From positions 1-42,584 of the forward strand of contig CAMAHD010000004.1 of assembly GCA_945834405.1 (NCBI GenBank): a DNA stretch of 42,584 nt. Direction: 5' to 3'. This document shows, one piece after another, positions 8,421-40,019 of this stretch. Every line of letters starts with the position of its first letter. Position 1 is the stretch's first letter. The position numbers were made by a program, and so were the translations under genes. A model generated the notes under the pieces. That model was given only the letters and a program-made list of their open reading frames with translations, was not told the DNA's origin and did not search any database. The DNA is from an uncultured Prevotella sp. GTDB lineage: Bacteria; Bacteroidota; Bacteroidia; Bacteroidales; Bacteroidaceae.

Positions 8421-9196
8421 GGCTCTACGATATAATCGTAAGACAAAGGACAAAGGCAGTGGTACTGTTGCTGGCAGCACTGGTCAGCACAGTCCCTGCC
8501 AATGCCTGGTGGCGTTGGAACATTGACTATTGGACTATTGCGCAGGTCGGAGAGAATACCGCTGCCGAGTCTGGAGCAGAGGGAATACATAACAACACCC
8601 TCACTGAGCAGAGAAAGAAGCAGGAGCGCATTGCCGAGTACACCACCGCTATCAATGTCATCAGACAGCTCTATAAGCAGTCCATGCAGAATACCAAAGG
8701 CTTCGGAGAGGAAAGCAGATATTATCAGCTGATAGGTGAGAATGCCCTGTATATCGTGACCAATATCCCTGTAGCTGTGAGCTGGCTCACCAGAAAGCCG
8801 CATATAAATCTGCCTCTGTGCATGAATGAGATCAGTAATCTGACCATGAAGACCGAACAGTGTATAGCAGGCTTTGTGAACATCGTCAACAATGGTCATG
8901 TCAAGTCGCCGCTGAAGGATAATTCGCTAATACCAGGTGGAGGTGGCAGAGCCAGCATCGGCAAGGATGACGGTTATAACTTCATGAGCCGTTCAGACAG
9001 AATGGGTATGGCCAATGATATACTGGAGGACTTGGTGATTGTCAGAAACAACCTCGACTATCTCATCTTCATGTGCCAGACCAACAACGGACTGGAAGAC
9101 CTGTTGATGGAGTTGGATCCTGATACATGGTGTAACGCCATGCAGATGAAGTGGACGGTTGGTGACATTGTCAGTGGTTGGGAAGACTTTGGGTAA
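8402..9196 (+). CDS. Exported T4SS-associated protein in the TraH/TraI position
   Basis: Signal peptide-like N-terminus; shares the C-terminal motif LDPDTWCNAMQMKW with the 22964 ORF. Confidence 0.6.
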   Translation: MGQSSIRLYDIIVRQRTKAVVLLLAALVSTVPANAWWRWNIDYWTIAQVGENTAAESGAEGIHNNTLTEQRKKQERIAEYTTAINVIRQLYKQSMQNTKGFGEESRYYQLIGENALYIVTNIPVAVSWLTRKPHINLPLCMNEISNLTMKTEQCIAGFVNIVNNGHVKSPLKDNSLIPGGGGRASIGKDDGYNFMSRSDRMGMANDILEDLVIVRNNLDYLIFMCQTNNGLEDLLMELDPDTWCNAMQMKWTVGDIVSGWEDFG

Positions 9197-9224
9197 GTGA
9201 AGAGTGAAAAGTGAAGAGTGAAGA

Positions 9225-9905
9225 ATGAAAAAACTGCACCGGATAATAGTAATAGCAATAGTGAGCATGATATGCCCACATACAGGACTTGCTGGTATCT
9301 TGCCAAATGACCTGCCAACCATTGAAGCACTGATAGACCAACATAAGGAGTGTATGAGTGCCGAAGATGAAAGTAACCGTCAGTTGGCAGCCAATGCCTC
9401 TATCAAGGCTATGGTGAAGGATGTTGCTCAGAAGTATGATGATGTCAAGAGTATTCTCGACAAGAAGAGTAATGATGCCTTGTCGTATCTGGCTTTGGCA
9501 GCAGAGATGAGCCGTTGCGTAACGAATACAGTAAGGTTGACGAATGAGTATTCTGAGTTTACCCGCTTTGCAGCAGACCATCTCAAAGGCAAACCGTTGG
9601 TTGCTTGGTATGCCTTTGAAGCCAATTACAAGGTATCGAAAGAGATCAAGAATATCAGGAAACTCTACCTTGCTGTGGCAGCATCAGAAACACAGTTCTT
9701 CAGAGCTACCAACAAGGAACGCATGAATATCATCTGGACACTGAACCAGAGTATCACCAATATGCGCGATGTCATCCAGCAAGCCTATATGTGGTGTGAC
9801 CTGTTGGTAGGTGGGTATATTCACGAGAGTCATATCTGGGAGATTATCGATACGTCCGTACTAGAGGAAATAGGAAAAAGCGTAATAAAAGATTGGCCAA
9901 TATGA
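9225..9905 (+). CDS. Exported tra-operon protein, unknown
   Basis: 226 aa with an N-terminal signal-like segment; collinear and coupled to the next gene by an ATGA overlap. Confidence 0.6.
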   Translation: MKKLHRIIVIAIVSMICPHTGLAGILPNDLPTIEALIDQHKECMSAEDESNRQLAANASIKAMVKDVAQKYDDVKSILDKKSNDALSYLALAAEMSRCVTNTVRLTNEYSEFTRFAADHLKGKPLVAWYAFEANYKVSKEIKNIRKLYLAVAASETQFFRATNKERMNIIWTLNQSITNMRDVIQQAYMWCDLLVGGYIHESHIWEIIDTSVLEEIGKSVIKDWPI

Positions 9906-11905: not shown

Positions 11906-12505
11906 ATGTTAATAGAAAGTTTAGAGAAGAAGACAAAGCTCGCCATGTTCACGGTATTGCTGGCAGTCAGTGCCAGCACCGTGATTTGCGGCCTGTGCTT
12001 TTACTTTGCCACCAAGCTGGTCAGAGACCAACAGCAGCAGGTGTATGTGCTGGACGGGAGCATTCCCTTCATGGCAGAGCGCAGTAAGAACGAGATGACC
12101 TTTGACATCGAGGCCAAGGCACACATCCAGTTGTTCCACCAGTATTTCTTCAACCTCTCGCCAGATGACGAGTACTTGAAGTGGACGTTTGGAAAAGCTA
12201 TGTATCTGGCTGATGAGAGTGCCCTGAGGCAGAAGCAGGCCATCGAGGAAACAGGTTTTTACTCGCAATTGCTCTCCAGCTCAGCCGTAGAGACCATCGT
12301 AGCGGACAGTATTGAACTCGACAAAGACCAGATGAGTTTCAAGTATTATGGTACACAGATGATCAAGCGCAGAACCAACAGCGTAAAGCGTAGCATCATC
12401 ACCGTAGGAAAGCTGCAGAATGTGCCGAGGACACAGAATAATCCTCACGGACTGCTGATAACCAACTGGCGAACACTGGAGAATAAAGACCTGAAATCAT
12501 ATTAA
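11906..12505 (+). CDS. traK: Conjugative transposon protein TraK (VirB8-like)
   Basis: 199 aa, single N-terminal TM, EAKAHIQLFHQYFFNLSPDDEYLKWTFGKAMYLADESALRQKQAIEETGFYSQLL. Confidence 0.85.
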   Translation: MLIESLEKKTKLAMFTVLLAVSASTVICGLCFYFATKLVRDQQQQVYVLDGSIPFMAERSKNEMTFDIEAKAHIQLFHQYFFNLSPDDEYLKWTFGKAMYLADESALRQKQAIEETGFYSQLLSSSAVETIVADSIELDKDQMSFKYYGTQMIKRRTNSVKRSIITVGKLQNVPRTQNNPHGLLITNWRTLENKDLKSY

Positions 12506-12543
12506 GTGAAAAGAGAAGAGTGAAAAGTGAAAAATGATGTACC

Positions 12544-19885: not shown

Positions 19886-21748
19886 ATGGAAGATAACAAG
19901 GATAACAGTGTAAAAGAGACTGAGCAAAAGCCCCAGGAACAGACTGAGGGCAAGACTGGCGGTAAGACGATGGCAGAAAAGGCCATCGACCGCTTCGCTC
20001 AGATGATGGTCACCCGTTTGGAAGAAATGAAAGGGCAACAGTGGGAAAAAGGCTGGATTGACGGAGGCGGCAGGACACACGGCCTGCCCCAGAACCTCTC
20101 TGGTCGCCGCTATTCAGGACATAATGACTTCTTCCTCCAGTTGCATACCGCTGCCAACGGCTATGATGTACCCGTCTATGCCACCTATAAGCAGATAAAG
20201 GAAGCTGGAGCCACTATCGCCAAGGGTGAGAAGGCCATGCCCGTCATCTACTGGAACGTCACCCATAAGGATGAGAACGGTCAGAAGGTTTCTGATGAAG
20301 CCTACGAAGCTATGACCAAGGCAGAGCAGGAGAAGGTCAAGACCATCCCCATTATGATGGGTTATTATGTCTGGAACCTACAGCAGACCAACTTCCCTGA
20401 GATCAAGCCGGAGCAGTATGCCAAACTGCAGGATAAGTTCAAGGCACCGCATATCGAGGATGCCACCGGTATGTACACCTCCAAGGAGTTCGACCAGATG
20501 ATTGACAAGCAGGCTTGGGTCTGCAAGATCAACAATGTCGAAGGTGCTGGCGCTTTCTACAGTCCGACGAAGGACGAGATTACCGTTCCGACGAAGAAGC
20601 AGTTCAAGATTCACGATACCCCTGAGGAAATCTACAAGGACGGTATGGAGTACTACAGCTCCATCGCCCATGAGATGGCCCATTCGACAGGTGTAGAGAA
20701 ACGTCTTGGAAGAGACATGGAAGGTCATTTCGGTGATCCGAAGTATGCCAAGGAAGAACTCGTTGCAGAGCTGACCGCTGCCATGGTAGGTAATACGATG
20801 GGCTTTGACAAGCGTATCCTCGACAACAATGCCAAGTATGTCGATTCCTGGATGGACACCCTGAAGAAAGAGCCCCGTTTCATTCTCAGTGTGATGGCCG
20901 ATGTCAACAAAGCCTCGAAGATGATCCTCGACCATGTGGATGCCCAGCGTCTGGAGATGGGCATGACAGCCCTCCAGCCCAAGGAAGAAGCAAACAACGT
21001 AAAAACAACGGAAGCCAAGGTAGCCCCAGAGACCAAGATGGATATAGCAGCAGAACCTATCGCCAAGCCCAAGACCAAGGCAGAAGAAAAGGCAGAACTT
21101 GCCAAGGAAACAGCAGCCGTCTTTAAGGACTTGAAGGAAAAGCATCCCGATGCTCTACTGTTAATGCGCAAGGGTGACTTCTATGAAGCCTTTGAGGAAG
21201 ATGCCAAGAAAGTAGCCAAGTCAACAGGCTTGAAGGAACAGCATATCATCAAGGAAGGCTTTTCCAATAAGGAAAACAAAGAAGGTGAAAAAGGCGTTTC
21301 CTATGTCAACTTCAAAAACACCAGTCTTGATAAGTACCTGCCTAAGCTCGTCCGTGACGGTCATCGTGTCGCTATCTGTGACAGTCTTGAAGACATCGCC
21401 AAGCAGCGTATCAGTGAGAGAAAAGAGCTGCAGGAACAACAGGTAGCGGCAAAGGCACAGCAGCCTGCCCAGTCAGCCAAGACCATTCCTTTGGATCAGT
21501 TCAACAAGCTCGAAACTGAGGATGGAAAAAAGATAGACCATTTTGCCGTTTTCAAGATGAAGAGCGGTAACTACGGAGTGAGGGCTATGGTGGACGGTCA
21601 GCAGATGAGTGTCAAGGCACTGGATAAAGAAGACCGCAATGCCTTCTTCGAGCATACCACTACCAAGGCTGCACTCGTCCAGAAGTACTATGGCAAGGAG
21701 CTCTCCCAGCCAAAGCATGAGGAACGTAGCAGAGCCAGAGCGATGTAA
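19886..21748 (+). CDS. ArdC-like antirestriction protein (zincin-like) fused to a MutS N-terminal-like domain
   Basis: ArdC-like N-terminus, HExxH-type motif SSIAHEMAHSTGVEKRLGRD, then FKDLKEKHPDALLLMRKGDFYEAFEEDAKKVAKSTGL resembling MutS domain I. Confidence 0.85.
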   Translation: MEDNKDNSVKETEQKPQEQTEGKTGGKTMAEKAIDRFAQMMVTRLEEMKGQQWEKGWIDGGGRTHGLPQNLSGRRYSGHNDFFLQLHTAANGYDVPVYATYKQIKEAGATIAKGEKAMPVIYWNVTHKDENGQKVSDEAYEAMTKAEQEKVKTIPIMMGYYVWNLQQTNFPEIKPEQYAKLQDKFKAPHIEDATGMYTSKEFDQMIDKQAWVCKINNVEGAGAFYSPTKDEITVPTKKQFKIHDTPEEIYKDGMEYYSSIAHEMAHSTGVEKRLGRDMEGHFGDPKYAKEELVAELTAAMVGNTMGFDKRILDNNAKYVDSWMDTLKKEPRFILSVMADVNKASKMILDHVDAQRLEMGMTALQPKEEANNVKTTEAKVAPETKMDIAAEPIAKPKTKAEEKAELAKETAAVFKDLKEKHPDALLLMRKGDFYEAFEEDAKKVAKSTGLKEQHIIKEGFSNKENKEGEKGVSYVNFKNTSLDKYLPKLVRDGHRVAICDSLEDIAKQRISERKELQEQQVAAKAQQPAQSAKTIPLDQFNKLETEDGKKIDHFAVFKMKSGNYGVRAMVDGQQMSVKALDKEDRNAFFEHTTTKAALVQKYYGKELSQPKHEERSRARAM

Positions 21749-22967: not shown

Positions 22968-23653
22968 GAAGAATACAATATACCATCATCATGCTGTTGA
23001 TGGCAGTAACAAACATCCATGCCCAGCAGACAGACCCAGCACTGACGGCAGCCGTAACAACTCAGACTTTTACCTTAAAGAGTCTTTTTGATGCCCGTCA
23101 CAGCACGCAGGAAAAGATATTGGCTGCAACAGGTATTGAGAACGTACAGTTGCAGCAGCTCCATGACATAGAGAAGAAGGTGCTGGACTATATGGCCAAT
23201 GTCTCAGGACTGATGCAGAACCTCTATCAGGTGAAGCGTACGACAGAACTTGTCACCGTAGAGATACCAAAGAATATCAATGAGGTGACGAAAGCCTGCA
23301 AGGGACATCTGAAAGGTACAGCTATTGCTTTGGCCGTCTCTGATGAGGTGAAGAGTGTCTATACCGAGATTGCCAGTCTCTCTGCTCTTTGTACCTCATT
23401 GGTTAAGACCAAGACCGTTGACGGCAACAAGGTCAACCTCCTCAATGCAGCTGAACGCTATTGGCTGTGCGAGAAGATTGTATCGTCACTGGAAGATATC
23501 AATTCAGCACTTTACATCCTCTCCTGGCAGATACAATACTTGTCATGGGAAGACCTCTGGCGAGGACTTGATCCAGAGACCTGGTGCAACTACATGCAGG
23601 GAAAATGGATGGCTGAGTCATGTATCAGGGACTGGGATGACCTGTTGAAGTAA
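22964..23653 (+). CDS. Exported protein related to the 8402 tra protein
   Basis: Signal peptide; C-terminus LSWEDLWRGLDPETWCNYMQGKWMAESCIRDWDDL matches the 8402 ORF. Confidence 0.65.
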   Translation: MRRIQYTIIMLLMAVTNIHAQQTDPALTAAVTTQTFTLKSLFDARHSTQEKILAATGIENVQLQQLHDIEKKVLDYMANVSGLMQNLYQVKRTTELVTVEIPKNINEVTKACKGHLKGTAIALAVSDEVKSVYTEIASLSALCTSLVKTKTVDGNKVNLLNAAERYWLCEKIVSSLEDINSALYILSWQIQYLSWEDLWRGLDPETWCNYMQGKWMAESCIRDWDDLLK

Positions 23654-23732
23654 AAGGTAAGATGTAAAAAGTAAGAGAGAAGAAAGAATAGGATAACAAT
23701 AGTAAATACACTTTAATCAAACAAAAAAGAAA

Positions 23733-30291: not shown

Positions 30292-30798
30292 TCAAAGAAT
30301 ACCTCCCTTGTCTTTCTGCATCCGCTGGATCTGTTCCTTGTTCCGCTCGATGAAAGTCCGACATACCGCATTGAGGATGTTGCCGAAGTTGAACTGTCTG
30401 CAGTTGATGCGGATGATGTCAAGAGCCCGCTTGATGTCCGGGTTCAGAACCACGGTAATCCTGTTCTCGTCGGGATGGTCGTTGTAGAACTCCGCATACC
30501 TGACCATCATATCCCATTCACCAGAGCCAGCCTCGATGATAGGCTGCACATTCGTCTGCTTTCCTCGACGTGCTCTTGCTACTTTTGGTCTTTGTGGTGT
30601 CGTATCTACAGGTGCAACCGCAGGACTTTCATTCTGAACAATCTCTTCACCCTCAGTATCAGAAGCGGTTTCTTCTGCTTTTGTAACCGCCTTCTCTTCC
30701 GATACAGTAGGAATCGGATCATTCTGTGCATCCATGAATGCGCCCAGAGAATCCAGATTGAGGATGTCGGGCTGCTGAATTAACTTGTTTGCTGCCAT
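30292..30798 (-). CDS. TraB-like DUF3408 protein
   Basis: 168 aa; GEWDMMVRYAEFYNDHPDENRITVVLNPDIKRALDIIRINCRQFNFGNILNAVCRTFIERNKEQI, directly after the parA gene. Confidence 0.7.
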   Translation of the reverse strand: MAANKLIQQPDILNLDSLGAFMDAQNDPIPTVSEEKAVTKAEETASDTEGEEIVQNESPAVAPVDTTPQRPKVARARRGKQTNVQPIIEAGSGEWDMMVRYAEFYNDHPDENRITVVLNPDIKRALDIIRINCRQFNFGNILNAVCRTFIERNKEQIQRMQKDKGGIL

Positions 30799-30800
30799 AC

Positions 30801-31487
30801 TTATTCCAGTTTTTGAAGTTCATTGTAAATCATGTCGAAGGCAGGTGCTACGCACTCAGCCTGAATCTTGGTGTTCCCGAAGGTGTTGTAACGGGCAATG
30901 TCAGCCCTGTCAGCTACCATCGGTGTTACGATGCCACCTGCCTGTGCCAGTGCCTCGTCTGTCTTTTTCCAAGTCTGCAGCTCCGCTGCCGTACCCCGGG
31001 TACGGATGACGAGATTCGGTACGAATATCAGTTTCGGCTTCTGCCGTCCTTTGAGGTAGGTTATCCAGATCTTTCCCACCAGATTGAGAAACTTCTGCGT
31101 TGCACTCAGACAGTTGAACTCATACTGATACGGACAGACAATCACATCACTGAAGCCCAGCAGAGGCACCATACCCTCCAGATAGATATTACCGGGAGAG
31201 TCGAATAGATAGATGCCGTTGGCAGTCTTTACAGACTTTAAGAGCTGTGCCGACTGCTGCAGACGGTCAATCTCAATCTGCTTGACCTCGTAAGGCTCCT
31301 TATCTGTTTGCAGGCTCTGACTGTCGAACTTGCGCTTGTCAACGATGGAGTGCTGACGGTCACAGTCCAGGACACAGACATCAGAAAACTTTTTCTCAGA
31401 CAGATAGTTGGCGAAGAGCGTACACAGGGTGGTCTTACCTACGCCACCTTTCTCATTCGCCCAAGTAATGGTAATGTTCTTTTTCAT
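30801..31487 (-). CDS. ParA/MinD-like ATPase (TraA-like)
   Basis: ITWANEKGGVGKTTLCTLFANYLSE deviant Walker A, YLFDSPGN Walker A'. Confidence 0.88.
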   Translation of the reverse strand: MKKNITITWANEKGGVGKTTLCTLFANYLSEKKFSDVCVLDCDRQHSIVDKRKFDSQSLQTDKEPYEVKQIEIDRLQQSAQLLKSVKTANGIYLFDSPGNIYLEGMVPLLGFSDVIVCPYQYEFNCLSATQKFLNLVGKIWITYLKGRQKPKLIFVPNLVIRTRGTAAELQTWKKTDEALAQAGGIVTPMVADRADIARYNTFGNTKIQAECVAPAFDMIYNELQKLE

Positions 31488-31536: not shown

Positions 31537-33108
31537 TCAAGACCGGCGGATCATTGCCTTTTCATCATCCACTTCACCGTAGCTGTTACGGTTGGCATCC
31601 GGATTGTAGTTGATGCGGTCACTGCTGCCAATATCATTCGATATAGGACGGGTCTTGCCAGATTGGGCATGATGCTTGTGTTCCGATGTCTCGATGTCTG
31701 CAGAACGTGAAGCTTTGAACTTGCTCATGTCTATGCCACTGGCTTCAAGGTCAACCACCTCCCTCTTCGACGGATTCACGCAGAAGAACTTGTCTTCAAA
31801 GCGGTACGTCCAGATACCCTCGTCATTCAGACGGTCAAAGATACTCTCGTTGCAACCCTTATCCTTCCCTAACTCCAACTGCTCGTTGATGGTGTAAAGG
31901 GTGGAATAAATGTTATTGCCATTCTCAGAGACATGCAGATGCTCAGAAGATACATTGAACATTTTGGAGAGTAAACGAACCTGTTGGTCGTTGACAGGCG
32001 AAAAACCCTGTACCCAAGCCACCTTATCGTTGTACTTGATCTTCTGTACGAGATAGTCGGCCAGCTCCACCTTGTCCTTTCCCATGATGATATTGCCGTG
32101 CTTGATATAGCAGCCATAGAAACGGTGAAGGTCATGATTGAGGTCGAAGGTCGTTGCCAACGGATTCTCCCGAAGCTTGTCCTCGATGAAGAAGTCCACC
32201 TTCTGAAGCTTCTCCTCACGGCTCTGGAACTGGAGCAGCTCCTTGATGCCGAGAATGTCACCACCCTTGAATACCGACTTGGTCGCATTATCCACCACCA
32301 TATAGCCATAAGGCGAAAACTCATTGCCAAGGAACTTGATACTGATGCCGAATTTCTTTTTCAGCATTGTCTCCAGTTCCTCACGGCTGGTACTCTGGTC
32401 GCTGTATTTTTTTAGGATAGCCCGAAGCTGACGGATGCGCTTCTTCTCATCCTCACCGTTCTTGCGACATAGTTTTTCCACATCCTTGACGGCAATCTTA
32501 TCCTGTACCTGCCCACCTCTTTTAATATAGATGTCCTTGTCCTGAATATAAGCCTCGTAGCCCGAAGTCTCGAAGATGGCCATGAACTGAGAGACAGACT
32601 CGAAGTGATAGGACTTGGCCAGTTTCATCATTTCAGAGTTCTGGTGCTTCTGGTCAATGCTCATAATTGACTCGATGGCCTTCAGTGAACGGATGTTCTC
32701 CATCGAGTCAGCAATCTTCTTTCCTTCCGGACTGATACGGCTTGTCACGATATGCAGATGGTTGTTGTCCGTATCATGATGAAAGTACATCAGCACAGGC
32801 TGCCCCTCATTGTTATAGCCCATCTTGTCCAGATACTTCCATGCTATACTAATCAGCTCTTCCTTGGAATACTCAGAACCCTTACAGGAAATGGCAGCAT
32901 GAAACTGAGTCATCCGTGTACGGTCATTCCTGGCAGAATAATCCATGAGATAGTTACGAAGAGACGTGATGCCTCTCATATCGGGAGCATCCTGCAGATA
33001 CCCGAAGTTACGAATGGCCACTAATTCAGCTACACCATTCTCCACCTTCCGCTCGTTGTAGCGGACTGCAGAGAAGGAACTGCTTGACTTTAGAATCGTT
33101 GCTATCAT
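31537..33108 (-). CDS. Relaxase/mobilization nuclease (MobB-like)
   Basis: N-terminal Tyr region and HHDTDNNHLHIVTSRISPEGKKI His motif; overlaps the MobA-like gene. Confidence 0.88.
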   Translation of the reverse strand: MIATILKSSSSFSAVRYNERKVENGVAELVAIRNFGYLQDAPDMRGITSLRNYLMDYSARNDRTRMTQFHAAISCKGSEYSKEELISIAWKYLDKMGYNNEGQPVLMYFHHDTDNNHLHIVTSRISPEGKKIADSMENIRSLKAIESIMSIDQKHQNSEMMKLAKSYHFESVSQFMAIFETSGYEAYIQDKDIYIKRGGQVQDKIAVKDVEKLCRKNGEDEKKRIRQLRAILKKYSDQSTSREELETMLKKKFGISIKFLGNEFSPYGYMVVDNATKSVFKGGDILGIKELLQFQSREEKLQKVDFFIEDKLRENPLATTFDLNHDLHRFYGCYIKHGNIIMGKDKVELADYLVQKIKYNDKVAWVQGFSPVNDQQVRLLSKMFNVSSEHLHVSENGNNIYSTLYTINEQLELGKDKGCNESIFDRLNDEGIWTYRFEDKFFCVNPSKREVVDLEASGIDMSKFKASRSADIETSEHKHHAQSGKTRPISNDIGSSDRINYNPDANRNSYGEVDDEKAMIRRS

Positions 33109-33512
33109 ACTGGTTTCTCGCTAAAAATACGTGTAAAGATCTTATGTTCCGTAGCTGCAATATCACTATTCAGAGAGAGCAGTTGGTGCAGTAATGGCTC
33201 AACAGAAGAAGTGATTACCTGCATATTATACTCACCATTTGCAGCAAGCAGGTTGCAGTAATGCGCTATCTGATTGAGGTTGTTCCCGATGCGGTTCAGA
33301 TCTGATTCGTGTTTCGATATGAGCGGATAAAGCAGGTTCATCGACTCAATGCGACGCTTCATGAGCGTGTCATCATAGTGGGCTACCGCATCACGTATCA
33401 TGGCGCTGATGGAGCCATAGTTTGCCGCCTTTGCCTCGAACATATCCCTTTCCGCACCGCTTACTCGGAGCTTTACTATCTGGTCTTTGTTTCCGGAATC
33501 TTTCATGGTCAC
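33105..33512 (-). CDS. Relaxosome accessory protein (MobA/MobC-like)
   Basis: KLRVSGAERDMFEAKAANYGSISAMIRDAV RHH-like N-terminus and LNRIGNNLNQIAHYCN. Confidence 0.85.
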   Translation of the reverse strand: MTMKDSGNKDQIVKLRVSGAERDMFEAKAANYGSISAMIRDAVAHYDDTLMKRRIESMNLLYPLISKHESDLNRIGNNLNQIAHYCNLLAANGEYNMQVITSSVEPLLHQLLSLNSDIAATEHKIFTRIFSEKPV

Positions 33513-33563
33513 TGAAAAAGTCTGTGAGTTGCGAACAGACTTTCCTCCCCAGCCGAAGGTCTG

Positions 33564-33710
33564 GCAAGTGGCGTTTTGTGGTCACAAACGCACAACTTGC
33601 AATCCCATCAACGATGGAGCCGTCTGTCCTGTTGGACACTCTCCGGAATAAAGGTCGGTCAGAGCCGTTGGCGGAGGCCTGCCAAAATTGAAGCCGATGG
33701 AAATCCATCG
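33564..33710. promoter_or_regulatory. Candidate oriT/leader region upstream of mobA
   Basis: Imperfect inverted repeat GCAAGTgGCGTTTTGTGgtCACAAACGCacaACTTGC (33564-33600) and CGATGGaaatCCATCG (33695-33710), immediately 5' of the relaxosome genes. Confidence 0.5.
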
Positions 33711-33722
33711 CCGAAGTCGTTG

Positions 33723-33730
33723 CAAAAGTA
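33723..33730 (-). promoter_or_regulatory. Predicted -7 element for the mob operon
   Basis: Minus-strand TACTTTTG followed by CAACG; no clear -33 element. Confidence 0.4.
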
Positions 33731-33765: not shown

Positions 33766-34085
33766 GTTTATTCACTTGTGCATTCATGCGGTTATACCCT
33801 TGTACACTTGTGCTTGCACGAAAGTACAACCGTACACATGCATACCCTTGTGCTGTTATATCCTTGTGCCCTTGTACATGCATAATTGCACACACTTATG
33901 CAGTCGTCATTTCATGCAGTCGTGTCCTTGTACGTTTGTGCAAGCACGATTGCACTGTCTTGTTCAGTTGTGCCCTTGTGCCTGCACAACTGCACACAAT
34001 GATGCGGTTATGCTTTCGTGCTCTTGTGCTCGTATGCTCTCGTGCTTGCACTCACGCATACATTCGTGCAGTTGTATGTTTGTGC
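33766..34085. repeat. Array of 40 degenerate, in-register 8-bp units
   Basis: Minus-strand reading splits without indels into octamers such as GCACAAGG GCACAACT GTACAAGG GCATAACC GCATGAAT GCACAAGT; main consensus G(C/T)A(C/T)(A/G)ANN. Confidence 0.9.
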
Positions 34086-34092
34086 AAAGGTA
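34085..34092 (-). promoter_or_regulatory. Predicted -7 element reading into the octamer array
   Basis: Minus-strand TACCTTTG followed by CAC; -33 not clear. Confidence 0.35.
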
Positions 34093-39881: not shown

Positions 39882-40019
39882 GCCAAATTGGTGAATAAAA
39901 TAGCGTCAAATGGGTGAATGAAAGTCGTCCAACTGTCGCATCAAAAAACAGCCAACTGTCGCATCAAAATAAGTCCAACTGTTGTGTCAAAAATCGGCCA
40001 ACTGTCGCATTAAAATTTG
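39882..40019. repeat. Six 23-bp tandem units
   Basis: GCCAAATTGGTGAATAAAATAGC, GTCAAATGGGTGAATGAAAGTCG, TCCAACTGTCGCATCAAAAAACA, GCCAACTGTCGCATCAAAATAAG, TCCAACTGTTGTGTCAAAAATCG, GCCAACTGTCGCATTAAAATTTG. Confidence 0.92.

Follow-up and report, generated by a model that had tools for sequence, protein, structure and literature searches.

The window analysed here, a 42,584-nucleotide stretch of DNA from an uncultured Prevotella sp. (contig CAMAHD010000004.1), carries a long array of 8-bp units beside a mobilization (mob) module. Along the minus strand, the array is followed after 166 bp by a putative core of the origin of transfer (oriT), and then come mobC and the genes for a relaxase, a ParA-family ATPase and a DUF3408-like protein, in this order. 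The array (33766–34085, minus strand) is 320 bp in length, which corresponds to exactly 40 contiguous octamers with zero indels, and in its coordinates, strand, length and unit number it is as described in the original prediction, which had been made from the sequence alone. Each unit consists of a 6-bp core at positions 1–6, either GYAYRA or its inverted form TYRTRC, followed by a spacer of two freer bases at positions 7–8. At its distal edge lies a TAnnTTTG -7-like element, TACCTTTG (34085–34092, minus strand), matching the Bacteroidetes -7 consensus, and a second such element, TACTTTTG (33723–33730, minus strand), is found between the array and the oriT core and is kept in 4 of 4 aligned relatives.

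The 8-bp phase is strong. The period-8 information of the array is 5.52 bits, compared with 0.40 ± 0.13 (maximum 1.02) in 3,000 dinucleotide shuffles and 0.40 ± 0.31 in sliding windows across the whole window. Thirty-seven of the 40 units fit GYAYRA or its reverse complement at five or six of the six core positions, and exact cores number 20 forward and 5 reverse, against a mean of 1.5 and a maximum of 5 exact units in the best phase of dinucleotide shuffles; nowhere else in the window do two or more exact units follow each other in phase. About a dozen units had originally been assigned to an alternative class with a motif of its own, which is incorrect, as the two classes are one core in two orientations. 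In the inverted units the core is flipped in place, in the same register and with the 2-bp spacer still at positions 7–8, and these units occur mainly in twos and threes (unit order along the array, FFF=RF=FFFFRRFFFRRFFFFFFRRFFFF=RRRFFFFFF). Identity between neighbouring units at lag 8 is 0.49, and they are not the near-identical copies of a simple tandem repeat or iteron. Tandem Repeats Finder detects just a 36-bp fragment (4.5 copies), so an array of this kind is easily missed.

Unit sequences differ between lineages, and we refer to these variants as dialects. Arrays of the same dialect are present at the same place in a set of close relatives (L002/L061, L062, L063/L003 and L007), all from Prevotella or Prevotella-like genomes, and the window, L061, L062 and L063 share this dialect in genomes of different species. 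The array lengths in the window and these relatives are 320, 320, 256, 280 and 264 bp (the last being the delimitable part of the L007 array), all multiples of eight (32–40 units), so that the unit-level alignment gaps are whole units. Changes in the aligned cores are mostly transitions, and between a minority and about half of them, depending on the pair compared, preserve the GYAYRA class. L007 has different upstream DNA, without the TACCTTTG element, and retains the array. One of the close relatives (G542) sits within a single-contig genome of 3.7 Mb, and that element is therefore integrated.

More distant relaxase homologues (35–49% identity) were collected first in 50 of the 399 congeneric genomes and then in the family. 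A composition-corrected period statistic was computed for the 1.4 kb in front of every relaxase gene. The threshold, taken from 297 mostly coding control segments, was their 99th percentile (z 5.9, with a maximum of 8.0). Period 8 exceeded it in 31 of 38 loci, while periods of 5, 7, 10, 11, 13 and 14 did so in 0, 1, 8, 2, 1 and 6 loci, the 10- and 14-bp cases largely falling within the same strong period-8 arrays. The loci are related, and independent lineages number nearer ten than thirty. Dialects include AWTCAGAA, ATATTnnn, WWnTCRnn, AWAATAnW and nYTATAnn, among others. In the relaxase tree, array-bearing rows (z at least 7) are found on most deep branches, with 7 label changes compared to 17 in shuffles. 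One clade has other repeats in place of the 8-bp array, namely a 9-bp array in L094 (-720 to -520 relative to the relaxase start) and a 35-bp repeat made of five 7-bp steps in L095 (-990 to -690). A large clade shows no clear array. Two viral-contig loci, found by their oriT core, carry a MobC of the array-less subclass and have no array; the relaxase search found no relatives in viral contigs. A 22-bp repeat that lies close to mob in NZ_CP103211.1 (L030) was considered as the same element and rejected, its copies being near-identical and iteron-like. The original prediction that spacing is under selection is thus supported, since homologues keep the 8-bp period and change length in whole units, and most have an array of the same phase and different sequence at this position. 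Judged from the sequences compared, conservation of spacing without conservation of sequence is a trait of a Prevotella mob family.

In several elements the interval that separates mobC from the relaxase gene contains a second array, and this one runs up to the start codon of the relaxase. We trained a matrix on each distal array and ran it against the proximal regions of all elements. In 8 of 10 elements (L067, L068, L083, L098, L070, L123, L071 and L073, but not L125 and L064) it scored its own proximal region best, or level with a same-dialect relative. A shared dialect of two arrays is expected of one trans-acting reader, and the result points to a single, element-specific reader that would serve both, although sequence exchange between the arrays could also explain it. 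The window has no second array because its mobC and relaxase genes overlap.

The array is also tied to the oriT region, as originally proposed from its placement. The putative oriT core of the window (33563–33600, minus strand; GCAAGTTGTGCGTTTGTGACCACAAAACGCCACTTGCC) contains nested inverted repeats, and the conserved core, GCAAGTTGT...ACTTGCC (GCAAGTTG), separates the array from mobC at 27 of the 32 loci compared. Its position, inverted repeats and conservation suggest that it is the functional oriT. The gap from array to core is 166 bp in the window and 79–244 bp elsewhere, with the array on the same side throughout. The L079–L090 group has mobC in the opposite orientation, with the array past the 3' end of the gene, and still the order of array and oriT core is unchanged, which indicates that the array is tied to oriT and not to a transcript. 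The window oriT gave no match to plasmids, and an order-level search for the oriT core, with a pattern too strict to recover the GCGTTTG of the window itself and with few relatives sampled, found nothing and was uninformative.

The only genes linked to nearly all arrays are those for the relaxase (26 of 26 loci) and MobC (24 of 26). In the window, mobC (33105–33512, minus strand) specifies a relaxosome accessory protein of 135 aa with a GTG start and an ATG at 33506, and the adjacent gene (31537–33108, minus strand) codes for a relaxase of the MobA/VirD2 type (PF03432, E=8.8e-18). MobC matches PF05713 (E=1.8e-8) and the NikA-like PF21983, a profile also matched by MobC in 28 of 31 relatives, and a profile search retrieved PcfF (6qeq, E=4e-4) and NikA (2ba3, E=0.015); this search was used instead of Foldseek, where long helices were the only matches of the MobC monomer in the PDB. 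Its AlphaFold2 model (pLDDT 83.5) has an N-terminal extended segment, two short helices and a long helical stalk, and the protein carries LNRIGNNLNQIA, which agrees with the LxxuGxNlNQia motif (here NNLNQIA) defined for ribbon-helix-helix (RHH) accessory proteins (PMC4175270). MobC is an RHH relaxosome accessory protein, with the RHH at its N-terminus. Together with the relaxase and the putative oriT, it would place the module in the MOBP-type oriT/mob class. By linkage and fold, though not by specificity, it is the leading candidate for the array reader, tentatively and with less than an even chance of being correct; a relaxase domain or another protein may read it instead. The MobC proteins of L073/L076 and L100 are nearly identical after about residue 30 but differ by a swapped N-terminal strand (TIVRKVRL and TKRLWVRL, respectively), which suggests recombination inside the DNA-binding segment.

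The window also carries conjugation genes (TraG ATPase, coupling protein and TraM), and a single reading frame (19886–21748) that joins the N-terminal domain of ArdC to a metallopeptidase domain and MutS domain I. Four short 7-bp tandem arrays (1374–1405, 9196–9229, 12504–12537 and 23647–23676), with the related units AATTGAA, AGTGAAG, AAGTGAA and GAAGTAA, occur at or near the starts of element genes, and two near-identical 46-bp tandem copies with a 23-bp substructure, CCAACTGTCGCATCAAAAAACAG, are located near a resolvase gene (39927–40016). Short octamer arrays, such as TCACAAAC, TTGTGAAA and TTATGAGT, were seen in congeneric genomes (L013–L028, for example L019, L020, L025 and L026), where they end at or shortly before the start codons of genes for a chaperonin, ribosomal protein L3, queuosine synthesis and a glycosyl hydrolase.

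We favour, at somewhat better than even probability, the reading that the array serves as a nucleoprotein platform linked to oriT and recognised by a protein that the element encodes, because period-8 arrays lie upstream of most relaxase homologues, across deep branches of the tree, and because the array keeps its side of oriT even where mobC is inverted. An element-encoded and probably two-fold symmetric DNA-binding protein would occupy successive 8-bp units in either orientation, contacts between neighbouring proteins would demand an unbroken 8-bp register, and the filament formed beside oriT may assist relaxosome assembly, control the mob promoters, or both. We infer the protein binding and its cooperativity, the effect on transfer or transcription, and the role of MobC as reader. 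Several observations weigh against the platform or against this reader. The array is missing from one clade that has this oriT core and includes Bacteroides-type elements, so it is not essential to this oriT family, and arrays outside the clade of the window are mostly not significantly palindromic. The MobC protein of RA3 binds one palindrome and no array, and transfer does not strictly depend on its binding near oriT (PMC4175270). The predicted DNA-reading strand of MobC does not track dialect; strand identity was tested as the dialect determinant and was not supported, the two dissociating both ways. Thus, L073 (TIVRKVRL) and L100/L078 (TKRLWVRL/TKRLWIRL) have different strands and one dialect (r 0.92–0.93), while L070, L071 and L078 have nearly one strand and different dialects.

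The original prediction had named partition, a relaxosome and a nucleoprotein filament as possible uses of a multimeric platform, and of these partition is now weakened. A partition centromere, with ParA and the DUF3408-like protein using the array as parS and possibly also stimulating conjugation, is improbable in our judgement. The genes for ParA (30801–31487, minus strand; PF01656/PF13614), which lies downstream of the relaxase gene, and for the DUF3408-like protein (30292–30798, minus strand) share a gene run, and the parS of pSM19035, used by delta/omega, is likewise built of adjoining 7-bp units in direct and inverted orientation. The smaller protein has an RHH-like C-terminus, its match to PF11888 being sub-threshold (13.7 bits; cut-off 29.9) and its model, with helices at 120–132 and 138–152, of low confidence (mean pLDDT 58.6). 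While contiguous direct and inverted short units are indeed a feature of RHH-type ParABS systems, ParA and an RHH ParB do not accompany every array. A parA homologue is near just 10 of 26 compared loci, ParA is not detectable in an array-bearing genome that is 99% complete (G251), and it is more than 200 kb away in two others (G210 and G507). Among elements that share a dialect, L070/L072 have parA nearby and L075/L077 do not have it within 5 kb, and several ParA-bearing elements (L111, L113, L115, L117 and L121) have no array. Neutral or host-driven slippage, by which Prevotella intergenic DNA would be prone to 8-bp tandem arrays and the mob array would be one of them, seems to us equally improbable: octamer arrays of 6–19 units do precede ordinary Prevotella genes, and several host genomes have a recurring unit of their own, but the period-8 signal that is present in most mob loci is rare in the control segments, and dialect follows the element across host species. 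Slippage also leaves unexplained the in-place inversion of cores and the dialect shared by separated arrays, the latter of which could be explained by exchange between arrays.

A purely transcriptional role has a still smaller chance of being correct. The array would then be an operator, from which the reader represses the promoters of mobC and the relaxase gene without itself taking a direct part in the relaxosome; this would suit the second arrays that stop at the relaxase start codon and the autoregulation described for RA3 MobC (PMC4175270), but not the L079–L090 group, where the array is past the 3' end of the inverted mobC and still beside oriT. Least probable, and very unlikely, is a transcribed leader or small RNA, in which transcripts from TACCTTTG would enter the array and hairpins of inverted units would regulate mob expression. 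A TAnnTTTG-like element is present at the array edge, and both strands of the array of the window fold better than shuffled sequence (z -3.3 and -4.5), but inverted units make any such array fold on both strands, and other dialects fold weakly (z -1.7 in L070, -0.8 in L068 and -2.6 in L076); the segments folded for L073 and L090 fell outside the array and were disregarded. The structured RNA of the original prediction is further weakened because neither the promoter, absent from L007, nor the orientation of mobC relative to the array is conserved. At gathering score, Rfam has no match at the array, its sole match in the window being a group II intron domain at the window edge (88–178).

The nucleoprotein platform might, in addition, act as an element-specific address code, the geometry of the filament fixing the spacing while core sequence and reader specificity co-evolve, an extension that we regard as speculative and rather unlikely. 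If true, the oriT of each element would bear the mark of that element, and relaxosomes would not be cross-assembled between relatives that share a cell. Conserved spacing with replaced sequence escapes ordinary homology and repeat searches, and the array is probably a missing component of the transfer origins in a large family of Prevotella mobile elements, where about ten natural dialects are available for studying the evolution of DNA-binding specificity and of transfer-origin identity.

In the literature, we found nothing relevant on octamer arrays at oriT or on such an arrangement in Bacteroides or Prevotella, and no system with a long array of fixed phase and replaceable sequence. In the met-box operators, MetJ binds cooperatively as an RHH dimer to 8-bp units in tandem, but these operators comprise two to five boxes of one palindromic consensus and serve metabolic promoters. 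As a lead only, the overdrive or Ri-plasmid transfer-stimulator sequences of Agrobacterium are 8-bp repeats beside the transfer origin that stimulate transfer, with the involvement of VirC1 (ParA-like) and VirC2 (RHH); they use one repeat sequence, and many of the present elements lack ParA. The RHH protein of the window, like RA3 MobC, PcfF and NikA, is encoded beside a MOBP-type relaxase and oriT, and no description of a long phased array was found for those three. RA3 MobC autoregulates at a promoter palindrome beside oriT and stimulates transfer (PMC4175270), and PcfF attaches to inverted repeats in oriT and bends them (PMC6514445). Among recorded mechanisms, the closest is that of the RHH ParB (omega) of pSM19035. 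A dimer of this protein binds a single 7-bp unit, whichever way the unit points; strict contiguity of the units is required, and ParA is fully activated only with four or more of them in a row (PMC9499535). Both systems have contiguous short units, direct and inverted, in strict register, overlapping promoters and an RHH reader (a candidate in the present case). The parS units, however, are 7 bp long, of one consensus, few in number (seven in one native site) and function in partition, whereas the present arrays have 8-bp units, 32–40 of them in the clade of the window, are linked to oriT, vary in sequence from element to element, and often occur without ParA.
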